The translations under genes were made by a program, and so were the position numbers. A stretch of 64,000 nt of DNA from Sphingomonas sp. EC-HK361 (lineage in GTDB: Bacteria; Pseudomonadota; Alphaproteobacteria; Sphingomonadales; Sphingomonadaceae): positions 1,054,724-1,118,723 of the forward strand of contig NZ_LR701493.1 of NCBI RefSeq assembly GCF_902498785.1, in the 5' to 3' direction. The notes beneath the pieces are model-generated. The model made no database searches and was not told the DNA's origin. It saw only the letters and a list, made by a program, of their open reading frames with translations. This document shows, in pieces, positions 22,805 to 44,431 of the stretch. How positions within the stretch are numbered: the first letter of the stretch is position 1; every line of letters begins with the position of its first letter.

Positions 22805-22881
<77 letters not shown>

Positions 22882-39183: not shown

Positions 39184-39360
39184 ATGACTCGCACACTTGC
39201 CACGATCGATCAGGCCGACCCGAAGGGTGGCTATGTCGTGCGCACCCCGCGCGAGAACGATGCGACGGGGGCCGTGCTGCGTCACGCGTTCGGCGAGGAT
39301 ACGCGTCTTCCGCAGGACATGACTGCGTTGCTCAAGGCTATCAGCGAACGCGCGCACTGA
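39184..39360 (+). CDS. Small hypothetical protein (58 aa)
   Basis: This 58-residue protein reads MTRTLATIDQADPKGG and continues with YVVRTPRENDATGAVLRHAF; it has no signal or membrane segment. I do not recognise it. It lies alone between the divergent glnE start and the converging ecfG end. Codon use looks like that of its neighbours, and the compact charged sequence suggests a real small protein, perhaps linked to stress signalling by position only. Confidence 0.6.
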   Translation: MTRTLATIDQADPKGGYVVRTPRENDATGAVLRHAFGEDTRLPQDMTALLKAISERAH

Positions 39361-39379: not shown

Positions 39380-40045
39380 TCATCGCTCGCGGCTGAGCGT
39401 GTCCACCTCGTCCATGATGCTGTCGAGCGCCGTCACATCGCGGTCCGACTTGTGGCTACGCCGCGAAGGCAGCGATCCGTCATTGAGGATCGTCTCCAGA
39501 GCGACTCGCCCGCGTGCGACGCGACTCTTGATCGTGCCGACCGCGACGTTGCAGATCTCGGCTGCTTCTTCATAGGCGAAGCCGCCCGCGCCGACGAGGA
39601 TGAGCGCCTCGCGCTGCGGCTGCGGCAGGTGGAGCAATGCGCGCTGCATATCGCCCAGCTCGACGTGACGATCCTGGCTGGCGGGCGCCGCCAGCAGGCG
39701 ATCGGCGACGAGATCATCCCATTCGCCCTTGAATCGGGCGCGGCGCATCTGCGACAGATAAAGGTTGCGCAGGATGATGAAGGTCCACGCGCGCATGTTG
39801 GTGCCCGCCTGGAAGCGCTTGCGGGCCGCCCATGCCTTCAGCAGCGTTTCCTGCACCAGATCGTCGGCCAGATCGCGGCTGCCCGACAGCGAACGGCCGA
39901 ACGCGCGCAGGTGCGGGATGACCTGCGCCAGCTCCGTCTTGAACTCCGGATCGGACAGCGAGACATGCTCGACGGGCGGGGCATCGTCCTGCTCGTCGTC
40001 ATGGTCCGTATCGGCACCGGCGGCACGCATGGGGGATTGGGTCAT
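39380..40045 (-). CDS. ecfG: ECF sigma factor EcfG (general stress response)
   Basis: This 221-residue sigma factor directs transcription of stress genes from GGAAC-N16/17-CGTT promoters. Region 2 is seen as RDLADDLVQETLLKAWAA with NMRAWTFIILRNLYLSQMRR after it (about residues 55-100). Region 4 is seen as REALILVGAGGFAYEEAAE with VGTIKSRVARGR after it (about 145-180). It is held inactive by NepR until PhyR is phosphorylated. ATG 40045 has AGGGAG at correct spacing. phyR and nepR lie just upstream. Confidence 0.93.
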   Translation of the reverse strand: MTQSPMRAAGADTDHDDEQDDAPPVEHVSLSDPEFKTELAQVIPHLRAFGRSLSGSRDLADDLVQETLLKAWAARKRFQAGTNMRAWTFIILRNLYLSQMRRARFKGEWDDLVADRLLAAPASQDRHVELGDMQRALLHLPQPQREALILVGAGGFAYEEAAEICNVAVGTIKSRVARGRVALETILNDGSLPSRRSHKSDRDVTALDSIMDEVDTLSRER

Positions 40046-40145
40046 CAGGCTCCCTGGGATCGCCACAGGCCGAGACGACATGCTCCGGCCCCCCATAGAT
40101 AGGAGGCTTCCGGCACGATTGCCACCCGCCCAAGCGTCGTGAAAA

Positions 40146-40283
40146 TCAGCGTAAAAGCAGAACCGCGAAGATCACGATCACCAGCACCAGCGAAATCGCC
40201 AGAATATACCGGGTCATGTGCGGGGTCGCCCCCGCGCGCGCATCCTCGGCATCGAGGTGGATGGGTTGTTCGTCGTTCGCCAT
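40146..40283 (-). CDS. 45-aa single-span membrane protein in the stress locus
   Basis: Translated by hand, this short gene gives MANDEQPIHLDAEDARAG, then TPHMTRYILAISLVLVIVI and FAVLLLR. It has an acidic cytoplasmic tail and one C-terminal transmembrane helix. It lies between phyR and ecfG, on the same strand, with 67 bases before it and 100 after. The function is unknown. The clean membrane helix and location argue that it is real and co-regulated with the stress response. Confidence 0.7.
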   Translation of the reverse strand: MANDEQPIHLDAEDARAGATPHMTRYILAISLVLVIVIFAVLLLR

Positions 40284-40350: not shown

Positions 40351-41151
40351 TTATGCCGCGGGTACGGTGGACTGGTCGAAGAACAGCGCCTGGCTGATCG
40401 CAGCTTTCACCGTGGACCGCTGGAACGGCTTGGTGATGAGGAAGGTCGGCTCCGGCCGTTCGCCCGTCAGCAGCCGCTCCGGAAAGGCGGTGATGAAGAT
40501 CACCGGCACGTCGAACTCGGCCAGAATGTCCTTCACGGCATCGATTCCCGAGCTGTCGTCGGCAAGCTGGATGTCGGCGAGGACAAGGCCGGGACGGTCC
40601 TCCATCGCCAGCGCGACCGCCTCGTCGCGCGTCACCGCGACGCCGGTCACGTCATGGCCGAGATCGCGCACGATCGTCTCGATATCCATCGCGATGATCG
40701 GCTCGTCCTCGATGATCAGCACGCGCGCGCGGGTCTGCTTCTCGATCTCCGCCATCGCCTCGGCGACCAGCGCGTCGACCTCGGACGGCTCGACCTCGAT
40801 CAGATATGCGGTGTCCTCGGGCGTGAAGCCCTCCATCGCGGTCAGCAGCAGCGCCTGCCGCGACAATGGAGTCATCCGCGCGAGGCGCGCACGCGCGATC
40901 GACTCCTGATCGTCGCTGCGCAGATCGTGATCGTCGAAATCGTCGTGGTTCGCCGACCCCCAGATCGCCTGGAACATCCGGTAGAGGCCAAGGCGCGGAT
41001 CGACGCCCTTGGGAAACTCGTCTGGTGCCGCGACGATCGCCTCCAGCGTCGCGCGCACATATTTGTCACCATGGCTCTGGCTGCCGGTCAGCGCCCGGCC
41101 GTAGCGCCGCAGGAAAGGAAGGTGCGGTGCGAGTTGTTGTCCAAGCGACAT
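40351..41151 (-). CDS. phyR: Response regulator PhyR (anti-anti-sigma factor)
   Basis: PhyR has a sigma-like N-terminal domain (about residues 1-130) and a C-terminal receiver, the defining layout of the partner-switch protein. On phosphorylation it binds NepR and releases EcfG. The receiver begins VLIIEDEPIIAMDIE near residue 143. The phosphoacceptor aspartate is in LADIQLADD near 190, and the lysine is in FLITKPFQRS near 240. The 266-residue length is normal. It diverges from nepR. Confidence 0.95.
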   Translation of the reverse strand: MSLGQQLAPHLPFLRRYGRALTGSQSHGDKYVRATLEAIVAAPDEFPKGVDPRLGLYRMFQAIWGSANHDDFDDHDLRSDDQESIARARLARMTPLSRQALLLTAMEGFTPEDTAYLIEVEPSEVDALVAEAMAEIEKQTRARVLIIEDEPIIAMDIETIVRDLGHDVTGVAVTRDEAVALAMEDRPGLVLADIQLADDSSGIDAVKDILAEFDVPVIFITAFPERLLTGERPEPTFLITKPFQRSTVKAAISQALFFDQSTVPAA

Positions 41152-41283: not shown

Positions 41284-41309
41284 GGAACAAACGAAGCGCT
41301 ATTTGGTTT
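41284..41309 (+). promoter_or_regulatory. Probable EcfG promoter of nepR-phyP
   Basis: GGAAC at 41284-41288 is followed after 16-17 bases by GGTT/GTTT (41305-41309). The -35 is perfect and the -10 is close to the CGTT consensus. It would give a leader of about 95 bases before nepR and allow feedback by EcfG. Confidence 0.6.
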
Positions 41310-41410
41310 CATCCGCTCAAAGCAAGAATGCGCAGCCGTCGCCACGGTAGCAACCGGGCGATTTGTATCTAGGATTCACCAAGCCCGCTCGGGCCGTCTG
41401 GGGGAATGCG

Positions 41411-41581
41411 TTGCAGTCGGGTAAGGGACCAGACACGCCATCGGCCAAGGGGAAGGCCGGCAAGGCAAAGGTTCACAGCAAGGATCACGATATGGGTGCC
41501 GCGCTCCGCACCGTCTATCAGAAGACGGTGGAGGAAACGGTTCCCGACGACCTGCTCGCACTCCTTGGGAAGCTCGATTAG
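41411..41581 (+). CDS. nepR: Anti-sigma factor NepR
   Basis: NepR binds and silences EcfG in unstressed cells and is sequestered by phospho-PhyR. The core family motif is clear: GAALRTVYQKTVEETVPDD, then LLALLGKLD at the C-terminus. TTG 41411 is chosen as start because GGGGGA lies seven bases before it, giving 56 residues, close to the family norm; an earlier TTG at 41363 would add 16 unrelated residues. It is followed nine bases later by the phyP-like kinase gene. Confidence 0.9.
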   Translation: MQSGKGPDTPSAKGKAGKAKVHSKDHDMGAALRTVYQKTVEETVPDDLLALLGKLD

Positions 41582-41590
41582 CGACATTCT

Positions 41591-43177
41591 ATGGCCAAAG
41601 ACGTTTCCCTGCCCGGCGCACGGCACGACCGCGCGGGGATCGGTGCCCATTGGCCGACCGGTGCGAAGCTTTTCCTGATTCTCAGCGCAGCGCTGCTGCC
41701 GCTCGCCCTTTTCGCCGTTTACGCGACCCTGCAGACGACGCGCGTCGCCGCGCAGGAGGCGCGCGCGCGGCTTCGCGTGGCCTCGGCGGAAGCGTCGCGC
41801 ACGCTGGCGATCGAACTGGTCGGCGACACGCGCGCACTAGGCGCTGCGCTCAAGGCGCTTGCCCGGGACCCGAACGACTCGCCGAGCTGCGCGCGCGCGC
41901 AGGGTGTTTTCGCCCAGCAGGCGGCAACCGGCGCGCGCTTCCTGATCGCGGCGCGCGACGGTCGCGTGCTGTGCGGCGGCGCGTTCGACGGCATGGCGAC
42001 GGCGCGTCGCCCCGAATTGACCAGCACGCCGACGGCGCGGTTGTTGCCCGGCAAGGGACTGGCGATCGACATGGCGGCGCCCGGTGGCTCGAGCTACGCG
42101 TCCGCGCTGTTCCCGGTCGATTTTCTCCACGCGATCAGCAGGCCGAGCGGCTTCGGTCAGCCCTATGCCGCCACCCTGACCGACGGCGACGCCGCGCTCT
42201 CGCTCGCCGAGCTTGAGACGGCAAGTCCGCTCGAACGGCGCGACACGATCCGCAACGATCTCGGCATCGCCGGCCTCTCGCTGGAAATGCAGGCGCGCGG
42301 CGCGCCGATTTCCTCCCCCACCATCGTCGCGCTGATGCTGCCGCTGATGATGTGGGCCGCGGCCGCCAGCATCGCCTGGCTCGTCGTCGATCATCTGCTG
42401 ATCCGCCCCTTGCGCGCGCTACGGCAAAGCGTCGCGACCTATGCGCCGGGCGAGGAGATCGACGCGCGGATCGTTCGCGGCCTCCCCGCGCAGGAAATCC
42501 GGGAGCTGGGCGATACCTTTCGCGCGATAAGCCGCACCGTCGCGATCCACGAAGCGGGGCTCGCCGAAGGACTCGTCAAGCAGCAGAAGCTGACCCGCGA
42601 GGTGCATCACCGGGTGAAGAACAACCTGCAGGTCATCTCCAGCCTCATCAATTTCCATGCGCGCGGGGCGGTGAGCGCGGAGGCCATCCGCGCCTATGCC
42701 TCGATCCAGCGCCGGGTCGATGCGCTCGCCGTCGTCCACCGCAACCATTTCGCCGAGATGGAGGAGAATCGCGGTCTCGGTCTCCGGTCGGTGATCGGCG
42801 AGCTTGCATCGAACATCCGCGCGACCGCCCCGGAGGGCAGTTCGATCGGGATCACGATCGATATCGATCCCGTGCTCGTGTCGCAGGACACCGCGGTCGC
42901 GGTCGCGTTCCTGCTGACCGAGGCGATCGAGCTGGCAAGCAGCGTCGATCCAGCCGCGCAGCTGCGCATCGCGGTGAAGCCCGCCGAGGACCCGGCGCGC
43001 GCCGTCCTTCGAATCACCGCGCGCGCGCTGGTCGAGAGCGACGTGCTTCGCGAAGGCATGACCCGCCGATACGGCCGCGTCATGGACGGCCTGGCCCGCC
43101 AGCTGCGTGCGCCGCTCCACCACGATCCCCTTTCCGGTGCATTCGAGATTACCGTCGCGATCACCGGGCGCGAGTAG
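41591..43177 (+). CDS. phyP: HisKA_2-family histidine kinase, PhyP-like
   Basis: This 528-residue membrane sensor has two transmembrane segments (LFLILSAALLPLALFAVYA near 26 and LPLMMWAAAASIAWLVVDH near 241) around a periplasmic domain. A HAMP-like linker follows, then the HisKA_2 box REVHHRVKNNLQVISSL with His339/340. The ATPase part is degenerate. The expected N-box asparagine is absent in AFLLTEAIELASS near 440, and the G boxes are not recognisable. In Sphingomonas Fr1 the phyR-linked kinase PhyP is a negative regulator of PhyR; position and degenerate ATPase fit that. The ortholog call is an inference. Confidence 0.8.
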   Translation: MAKDVSLPGARHDRAGIGAHWPTGAKLFLILSAALLPLALFAVYATLQTTRVAAQEARARLRVASAEASRTLAIELVGDTRALGAALKALARDPNDSPSCARAQGVFAQQAATGARFLIAARDGRVLCGGAFDGMATARRPELTSTPTARLLPGKGLAIDMAAPGGSSYASALFPVDFLHAISRPSGFGQPYAATLTDGDAALSLAELETASPLERRDTIRNDLGIAGLSLEMQARGAPISSPTIVALMLPLMMWAAAASIAWLVVDHLLIRPLRALRQSVATYAPGEEIDARIVRGLPAQEIRELGDTFRAISRTVAIHEAGLAEGLVKQQKLTREVHHRVKNNLQVISSLINFHARGAVSAEAIRAYASIQRRVDALAVVHRNHFAEMEENRGLGLRSVIGELASNIRATAPEGSSIGITIDIDPVLVSQDTAVAVAFLLTEAIELASSVDPAAQLRIAVKPAEDPARAVLRITARALVESDVLREGMTRRYGRVMDGLARQLRAPLHHDPLSGAFEITVAITGRE

Positions 43178-43216: not shown

Positions 43217-43241
43217 GGAACCAGCGGTTCGGTGCGTCGTT
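43217..43241 (+). promoter_or_regulatory. Perfect EcfG promoter (GGAAC-N16-CGTT)
   Basis: GGAAC at 43217-43221 and CGTT at 43238-43241 are separated by exactly 16 bases, matching the alphaproteobacterial general-stress promoter at every defined position. No protein gene starts right after it; instead an RNA-like two-hairpin segment ending in a terminator follows. Confidence 0.8.
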
Positions 43242-43247
43242 CTGCAA

Positions 43248-43346
43248 TGCGGATGGCGACCTTATGCCCCCCCGCTCTCGCCATCCAAGCCATAGGCCCG
43301 GAAATGTCCCCCTCCCCCCCGGTGACATTTTCGGGCCTTTTCCTTT
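43248..43346 (+). ncRNA. Candidate stress-induced small RNA, GsrN-like
   Basis: A transcript of about 99 nt is predicted from the EcfG promoter (start near 43248) to an intrinsic terminator. Hairpin 1 pairs GGATGGCGA (43251-43259) with TCGCCATCC (43278-43286), nine perfect pairs with an 18-base loop holding seven consecutive C residues. Hairpin 2 is the terminator, with a 15-base loop that is again C-rich and contains CCTCC, complementary to ribosome-binding sites. The layout resembles GsrN of Caulobacter, a sigma-T-dependent sRNA with C-rich target-binding loops. It lies between phyP and an entericidin gene. Evidence is hand folding and promoter match; no homology search was possible. Confidence 0.75.
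43294..43346 (+). terminator. Intrinsic terminator of the candidate sRNA
   Basis: AGGCCCG-G-AAATGTC (43294-43308) pairs with GACATTT-T-CGGGCCT (43324-43338), a 15-bp stem with one G-T pair. The stem is followed by TTTTCCTTT. This is one of the two clear Rho-independent terminators I find in the window. Confidence 0.88.
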
Positions 43347-43369: not shown

Positions 43370-43394
43370 GGAACGATCCGATGCGTTGCGCATT
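43370..43394 (+). promoter_or_regulatory. Probable EcfG promoter of the entericidin gene
   Basis: GGAAC at 43370-43374 is followed after 16 bases by CATT (43391-43394), one mismatch from CGTT. The predicted start would lie about 30 bases before the entericidin ATG, a normal leader. Confidence 0.55.
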
Positions 43395-43432
43395 TCAGCG
43401 ATCGAGATGTGTTCGTTCAGTGGAGAAAGTCG

Positions 43433-43567
43433 ATGCGTAAACTTCTTGGACTCATGATCGTCGCCGGCGCGCTTGCGGTGAGCGCATGCAACACCATCGA
43501 AGGTGCAGGCAAGGACGTTTCCTCGGCCGGCCAGACGGTCGCCAAGACGGCTGACGACGCGAAGTAG
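43433..43567 (+). CDS. Entericidin A/B family lipoprotein
   Basis: This 44-residue lipoprotein reads MRKLLGLMIVAGALAVSAC, with the lipobox cysteine at residue 19, followed by NTIEGAGKDVSSAGQTVAKT. The mature part is the typical amphipathic entericidin. The gene is too short for ordinary gene calling. A ribosome site (GGAGAAAG) lies eight bases before the ATG, and an EcfG-type promoter lies upstream. Entericidins are often stress-induced in sphingomonads and related bacteria. Confidence 0.88.
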   Translation: MRKLLGLMIVAGALAVSACNTIEGAGKDVSSAGQTVAKTADDAK

Positions 43568-43601: not shown

Positions 43602-43637
43602 ACGGGCCGGGTTGCACATGCAGCCCGGCCCGTTTTC
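43602..43637 (+). terminator. Intrinsic terminator after the entericidin gene
   Basis: ACGGGCCGGG (43602-43611) pairs with CCCGGCCCGT (43624-43633) around a 12-base loop, followed by TTTT. It abuts the tatC stop on the other strand. Confidence 0.88.
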
Positions 43638-44431
43638 TATTCCGCGACCTCGATCACGTCCGCTTCGCGCGCGCGGCGCTTTTCGGTGAACCAGATGCCG
43701 ATGATCGCGAGTTCGTAGAGGATGATCAGCGGCACCGCGAGCAGCACCTGGCTCATCAGATCGGGCGGTGTCAGCACCGCGGCGATCGCCGTCGCCGCGA
43801 CGATCGCATAGCGGCGCGCGCCGATCAGCTGCTTGCGGGTCACGATCCCGGCACGCTCCAGCAGCATCAGCAGCACCGGCAGCAGAAACGCGAAGCCGAA
43901 GCCGAACATGAACTGCATGATGAACGACAGATAGTTGCCGATCGCGGGAAGCGCCTCCTGGTGCACCCCGCCGACATTGCCCTGGAAGCTCAGCAGGAAA
44001 TGCAGCGCCAGCGGCACCGCGACGAAATAGGCCATCGCCGCCCCGGCGGTGAACAACACCGGCGTCGCGAGCAGGAACGGCAGCAGCGCACGCCGCTCCT
44101 TGCGATAGAGTCCCGGCGCCACGAACTGCCACAGCTGCATCGCGATGACGGGGAACGCGATCATCATCGCGGCAAAGAACGCGACCTTCACCTTGACGAA
44201 GAAGGCTTCGAAAATCTGGGTGTAGATCAGCGTCTTCTGCCCCGCGGCCAGCAGCGGCTTGGCGAGAAAGGCGAAGATACCTTCGGCGAAGTAGTAACTG
44301 ATCCCAAACGCGATCACCATCGCGACGATGCAGTAGAGCAGCCGCCGGCGAAGCTCGATCAGATGATCGAGCAGCGGCGCCTTCGACGCTTCCAGCTCGT
44401 CGCCGTCTTCGATCCGTTCTGGCGTGGTCAT
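43637..44431 (-). CDS. tatC: Sec-independent protein translocase TatC
   Basis: TatC is the receptor subunit of the twin-arginine translocon. The 264-residue protein has six hydrophobic segments and the N-terminal family signature HLIELRRRLLYC near residue 25, then FVAPGLYRKERRALLPF near 105. Its ATG overlaps the tatB stop as ATGA. Tat substrates with visible RR signals in this window include the DUF885 protein. Confidence 0.95.
   Translation of the reverse strand: MTTPERIEDGDELEASKAPLLDHLIELRRRLLYCIVAMVIAFGISYYFAEGIFAFLAKPLLAAGQKTLIYTQIFEAFFVKVKVAFFAAMMIAFPVIAMQLWQFVAPGLYRKERRALLPFLLATPVLFTAGAAMAYFVAVPLALHFLLSFQGNVGGVHQEALPAIGNYLSFIMQFMFGFGFAFLLPVLLMLLERAGIVTRKQLIGARRYAIVAATAIAAVLTPPDLMSQVLLAVPLIILYELAIIGIWFTEKRRAREADVIEVAE

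Follow-up and report, generated by a model that had tools for sequence, protein, structure and literature searches.

Cuckoo RNAs/CcsR and ar14 carry anti-Shine-Dalgarno-like CCUCC loops under different sigma factors and at different loci, while ErsA/Pseudomon-1 (Rfam RF01719) depends on a stress sigma factor. Closer to the small RNA (sRNA) described here is GsrN of Caulobacter crescentus, an RNA of about 100 nt with a SigT promoter that acts through six tandem C residues in a loop and, when paired with the katG leader, activates katG (PMC5869019). GsrN is processed to a stable 5′ isoform and stabilized by Hfq. GsrN homologs usually lie near ecfG-nepR-phyR, those found by BLASTn are confined to Caulobacteraceae, no gsrN-like gene was apparent to the authors in Erythrobacter litoralis, and the string "Sphingo" does not occur in the main text of their paper (PMC5869019). 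The GsrN-like RNAs predicted in Rhizobiaceae and in Bradyrhizobium/Rhodopseudomonas share an EcfG site and a place in the stress locus, and those of Rhizobiaceae also share a C-rich loop; they were predicted from place, promoter, and some expression data, with no covariance support seen in the available text (PMC5869019). SuhB of Sphingopyxis granuli is likewise an sRNA of a sphingomonad, but it is 61 nt long, is abundant at fast growth, and acts on thnR, and the available text of its description shows no link to EcfG (PMC6563040).

We analyzed a 64,000-nt stretch of DNA from Sphingomonas sp. EC-HK361 (the window), in which a candidate sRNA lies behind phyP in the general stress locus. Its parts are:

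43217–43241, plus strand: EcfG-type promoter of the sRNA, GGAAC-N16-CGTT, from the window sequence and conservation
43248–43346, plus strand: sRNA gene, about 99 nt, its start placed from the promoter and its end from the terminator
43251–43286, plus strand: hairpin 1, 9 bp with an 18-nt loop containing C7
43294–43346, plus strand: terminator hairpin and U-rich tail, the stem pairing 43294–43308 with 43324–43338

The promoter boxes are GGAAC at 43217–43221 and, after N16, CGTT at 43238–43241, and promoter and terminator together assign the RNA to the plus strand. Hairpin 1 pairs GGATGGCGA with TCGCCATCC around a loop at 43260–43277 that holds eleven C residues altogether, seven of them consecutive (43267–43273). 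The terminator hairpin (43294–43338) has 15 bp, one of them a G-U pair, and a C-rich 15-nt loop at 43309–43323, CCCCTCCCCCCCGGT, which contains CCTCC; the U-rich tail then runs to 43346. A first-pass annotation, made from the letters of the DNA, had described a GGAAC-N16-CGTT promoter, a 9-bp hairpin whose 18-nt loop holds seven C residues, a 15-bp intrinsic terminator with CCTCC in a second C-rich loop, and a segment of about 99 nt with no protein start. All of these elements lie where it placed them, the seven C are contiguous, and across relatives the segment shows no consistent reading frame, because the C-run of loop 1 varies in length (6, 7, 9, or 10).

Folding predictions agree with an RNA that exposes this C-run. 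In the predicted fold of 43243–43346, hairpin 1 has a mean pair probability of 0.99; the choice of ends matters, because when the fold is extended to 43356 (overall z −5.5) an alternative replaces hairpin 1. Across relatives the predicted probability of hairpin 1 is at least 0.98 in 27/28 sequences and 0.62 in the remaining one (L015), and the C-run of loop 1 (C6–10) is predicted to be unpaired at 0.84–1.00 in all 28 sequences, so that, as in GsrN, an exposed C-rich loop would stand in the 5′ part of the molecule.

The promoter is conserved as well. Counting the window, GGAAC-N15–18-NGTT stands upstream of the sRNA in 31/32 sequences and the strict form GGAAC-N16/17-[CG]GTT in 29/32. Studies of S. 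melonis Fr1 and S. granuli TFA report the same EcfG motif (PMC6599016, PMC7083833), and a promoter of the general-stress sigma factor (EcfG/SigT) is also what the motif suggests by comparison with GsrN; EcfG is very probably the sigma factor that transcribes the sRNA. The pattern alone is insignificant (1 match in the window vs. 1.28 expected in shuffles), and it is because of conservation, not the promoter pattern by itself, that the locus rises above chance. Conservation concentrates in the promoter boxes and the sRNA. In the 93 aligned sRNA columns (28 sequences) the majority base has a mean frequency of 0.87; the corresponding figure from 32 sequences is 0.45 ahead of the −35 box, 0.49 within the spacer, and 0.40 on the downstream side, values that are somewhat lowered because flank and spacer columns were anchored without gaps.

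Both helices covary. Our main alignment (A1, plain MAFFT) holds 28 sequences, after removal of L004, which equals L001, and of L026, L027, and L031, which are near-identical by eye. RNAalifold recovered both helices from it unprompted, with two-sided changes at 13/23 pairs. In the drawn structure 97.9% of cells are paired and 14/24 pairs show two-sided changes, whereas slid controls are 33–46% paired and 0/500 shuffles reached any of five structure measures. Two-sided changes affect 3/9 pairs of hairpin 1 and 11/15 pairs of the terminator stem in A1, and 8/9 and 13/15 pairs in A3, a more diverse alignment of 41 of 58 sources in which both sides vary in 21/24 pairs and which, being aligned with the model, leans toward the model's structure. 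The stems of divergent genomes differ by coordinated changes on both sides, and the C-rich loops are retained. From this comparison of sequences, we conclude that the sRNA belongs to a real, well-conserved gene family of EcfG type in Sphingomonadaceae.

The sRNA is embedded among, yet separable from, the genes of the general stress response. The neighboring features in the window are:

39380–40096, minus strand: ecfG ORF, start uncertain (Pfam sigma-70 regions 2 and 4)
40351–41151, minus strand: phyR (Pfam PhyR_sigma2)
41284–41308, plus strand: EcfG-type promoter of nepR-phyP, GGAAC-N16-GGTT, from the window sequence
41400–41404, plus strand: G5 run in the ribosome site of nepR, where the sRNA might pair, from leader comparison
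41411–41581, plus strand: nepR, anti-sigma factor of EcfG, with a TTG start placed by comparison (Pfam NepR, 34.8 bits, cut-off 25.7)
41591–43177, plus strand: phyP, now phyT (PMC6599016), a HisKA_2 kinase/phosphotransferase upstream of the sRNA (Pfam HisKA_2, 60.4 bits)
43370–43394, plus strand: likely EcfG promoter of entericidin, GGAAC-N16-CATT, from the window sequence
43433–43567, plus strand: entericidin (Pfam Entericidin, 30.0 bits on the ORF 43409–43564)
43637–44431, minus strand: tatC, convergent, the most constant downstream neighbor (Pfam TatC)

The nepR-phyP promoter is similar in L003, L017, L025, and L030. S. granuli TFA uses CATT as a −10 box (PMC7083833), and given its GGAAC-N16-CATT box entericidin is probably driven by EcfG as well. 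Two further ORFs lie in this region: a short one adjoining ecfG (39184–39360, plus strand) has, as judged by eye, a NepR-like C-terminus (LRHAF...LPQDMTALL) and is perhaps the NepR2 of S. melonis Fr1, and a membrane-like ORF of 45 aa between phyR and ecfG (40146–40283, minus strand) has a G6 before its start in the window, with similar ORFs but no conserved G-run in relatives and no Pfam match.

Searching with PhyP yielded 32 loci, in 31 of which phyP is followed by the sRNA; the exception, L016 (Sphingobium), has it elsewhere in the same genome (L037). There the sRNA adjoins tatC and entericidin, and the phyP relative is on a different contig. Among divergent loci, tatC was recognized by eye as the common neighbor in 8 of the 11 read. 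Because its constant neighbor is tatC and not phyP, the sRNA is a gene in its own right. A first covariance model (R1), applied at E 0.001 to 296 genomes of the order, matched 80; a second (R2), built partly from the R1 draw of order genomes, matched 123/298 genomes of the family at the same threshold, 108 of them at E < 1e-8. Five genomes searched individually each gave a single strong match (5/5), and named carriers include Sphingomonas, Hephaestia, Sphingomicrobium, and Sphingobium sp. CECT 9361 (via its genome). The sRNA was missed in 175/298 family genomes, a figure to be read with the fact that strict filters lose weak members; conversely, the weakest matches listed may be chance, because a 35-bit match elsewhere (L145) reads like an ordinary terminator. 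Of 20 family genomes without the sRNA, 13 yielded RNA matches, most of them weak, when E up to 1 was allowed, and no EcfG box was seen upstream in the ten such loci examined. A NepR query matched 18/21 divergent carriers and 1/20 family genomes without the sRNA, so that the latter give no control for the nepR G-run.

At the level of the class, R2 matched 3/385 genomes, of which two are sphingomonads already represented among the earlier matches and the third is a weak match (L093). This last locus (G613, 35.9 bits) has a C7-loop hairpin and, after it, a terminator whose loop contains CCUCCCCC (1501–1600), with no GGAAC upstream in the stretch read and no tatC, and may be a C-loop sRNA that arose by convergence, or a chance match.

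These results bear out much of the first-pass reading, which had taken the segment for a general-stress sRNA inside the stress hub, like GsrN, and had made that reading depend on conservation of hairpins and promoter in relatives. Conservation is as it expected (31/32 loci, 31/32 promoters, covariation in both stems), and the EcfG-type promoter, the missing reading frame, and the conserved terminator all argue for a general-stress sRNA. Its placement holds for the loci with phyP and is not universal, since in Sphingobium and in most of the divergent loci read the sRNA sits by tatC. The likeness to GsrN stands as an analogy of promoter type, length, and C-rich loop. The two RNAs have in common a general-stress sigma promoter, a length of about 100 nt, an exposed C-rich loop, a terminator of their own, and a place near the ecfG-nepR-phyR genes that is usual among GsrN homologs, and by this analogy the sRNA most likely works like GsrN; the sphingomonad RNA differs in having two C-rich loops, one of them in the terminator. 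Rfam 15 places no family above its gathering score at the sRNA locus, and within the window it reports a single match, a tRNA (22805–22878). Up to E 10 the locus matches nothing besides Pseudomon-1, which at 13.2 bits vs. a gathering score of 50 is below threshold; the likeness consists of CCCCCUCCC in a loop before the terminator, and the subthreshold match rests on the C-rich loop. No published description of the sRNA was found in the open-licence literature searched, and the main texts of two sphingomonad stress-regulon studies yielded no sRNA at all (PMC6599016, PMC7083833). As far as Rfam and this literature search extend, the sRNA is apparently undescribed.

If the C-rich loops pair with mRNAs, G-runs at ribosome-binding sites are where one would look for targets. 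Few plausible starts in the window stand behind at least 5 G, and nepR is among them. Across relatives, 25/27 nepR leaders have G5–6 before the start, S. daechungensis (L028) and L013 have only G4, and a TTG start was read in 27/27; the script chose the start among in-frame codons near a G-run, which favors this count, and the run is also visible by eye in the aligned leaders. Runs of at least 5 G precede the starts of four neighboring genes in only 6/99 cases pooled (phyR 0/30, ecfG 0/30, entericidin 0/16, the small ORF between phyR and ecfG 6/23), by which two of them drop out as targets: ecfG, whose G6 near the ORF start in the window is unconserved, and the small ORF. nepR was not found in L015, L016, L022, L025, L027, L031, L104, or L109. 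Divergent carriers of the sRNA are less uniform, and their 16 readable nepR leaders comprise one with G5, nine with G4, and six with no run at the start; because of these six, nepR cannot be a universal target. In four carriers (L095, L097, L098, and L110) nepR starts with ATG and its leader differs. Among genomes of the class other than G001 and G010, G5 stands at the nepR start in 0/6 readable leaders, nepR not being found in 9/17 class loci. Predicted duplex energies between loop 1 and the nepR leaders are matched by 1438/5400 shuffles of the same leaders and are therefore uninformative beyond G content.

A wider view of G-runs yields a second candidate. The S. daechungensis genome has 36 G6 sites vs. 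23 for a reversed control pattern; among 33 stretches retrieved around such runs, 23 show an ORF of at least 40 codons behind G6–7, about eight of which are real starts by eye. himA, examined since G6 stood before it in this one genome, has G5 or longer in 10/25 leaders from genomes with the sRNA (L196–L220) and may be a second candidate target. It encodes IHF alpha, and its G-run is also present where nepR has none (L216 and L217, with L095 and L098). pdhA, from the same list, was rejected, with a run of 5 in 0/25 leaders (script-picked starts). GsrN's target katG showed no G run of 5 in the 13 readable of 23 sphingomonad leaders, a weak test of pairing; these starts, too, were script-picked. 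Since himA has G5 or more in 10/25, the nepR G-run is not unique, for which reason we slightly lowered an already low estimate: for Sphingomonas and Sphingomicrobium the leaders favor nepR over the other candidate targets, and that it is a direct target seems possible and yet unlikely.

How the sRNA acts, and on what, can be explained in several ways. One possibility is that it is an EcfG-dependent sRNA with targets other than nepR, the G-run being a strong ribosome site that offsets the TTG start. GGGGG can indeed pair with the anti-Shine-Dalgarno sequence via a G-U pair. The absence of the run from six of 16 divergent carriers, the unexceptional duplex energies, and the G-runs of himA all point the same way, whereas compensation for a weak start is at odds with pdhA, where script-read GTG or TTG starts lack a run of 5 throughout (0/25), and with ecfG, where 11 of the 30 runless leaders also have TTG or GTG. 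We judge this explanation nearly as likely to hold as to fail. If the RNA instead served as a decoy, titrating a C-rich-RNA-binding protein without base pairing, this would account for loop sequences far better conserved than a terminator requires and for C-runs of 6 to 10, a variation that a protein site might tolerate. We know of no C-rich-RNA-binding protein of such kind in sphingomonads. GsrN, with a C-rich loop likewise, works by pairing (PMC5869019), and we regard the decoy as improbable.

The remaining explanations deny that the segment is an independent regulatory RNA. Its position directly 3′ of phyP in the window could make it a mere phyP terminator or a 3′UTR-derived piece of phyP mRNA, which is very unlikely given that it has its own conserved promoter, that in Sphingobium it adjoins tatC and entericidin and shares no contig with the phyP relative, and that termination needs neither hairpin 1 nor its loop. 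No more credible is a cis-acting leader or attenuator of entericidin: although entericidin lies downstream in the same orientation at many loci, it has its own GGAAC box, and the sRNA is kept in L013, L015, L017, and L021–L032, loci in which entericidin went undetected at E 0.01. That the segment is a short coding sequence (ATGCCCCCC...) is the most improbable of all, for while a start-like NTG precedes the C-run in 26/28 sequences, two sequences have no start, the frame is broken by the varying C-run lengths, and sequence changes follow base pairing.

The promoter of stress-sigma type, the terminator within the RNA itself, and the two open C-rich loops are consistent with a base-pairing sRNA. 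We consider it probable that the RNA is a small regulatory RNA acting in trans in the Sphingomonadaceae general stress response, and judging from its sequence it probably acts by base pairing through its C loops. Transcription by free EcfG would begin at a GGAAC-N16/17-CGTT promoter belonging to the RNA and end at the RNA's own intrinsic terminator. The RNA would expose two C-rich loops, G-C6–10-GC in hairpin 1 and CCCTCCCCCCC in the terminator loop, which would pair with G-rich ribosome-binding sites and alter translation of the target mRNAs. Were nepR blocked in this way, less anti-sigma factor would be made, and perhaps less of the cotranscribed phyP/phyT, and lowered NepR would prolong the general stress response. 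The sign of the effect could be the opposite, with activation instead of blocking, as for GsrN with katG. In S. melonis Fr1, nepR and phyT are EcfG-dependent and serve feedback control (PMC6599016). A post-transcriptional positive feedback, in which EcfG makes an sRNA that represses the G-rich site of nepR (and phyT), so that brake genes transcribed by EcfG are held back during stress and lineages without the nepR G-run use other targets, possibly himA, is a speculative scheme that we think rather unlikely to hold in full.

An sRNA family of EcfG type would add a post-transcriptional arm to the general stress response of sphingomonads, a group that has a model system in S. melonis Fr1 with mutants ready. 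If nepR is a target, the sRNA would also help explain how the switch stays on though its own brake belongs to the regulon.
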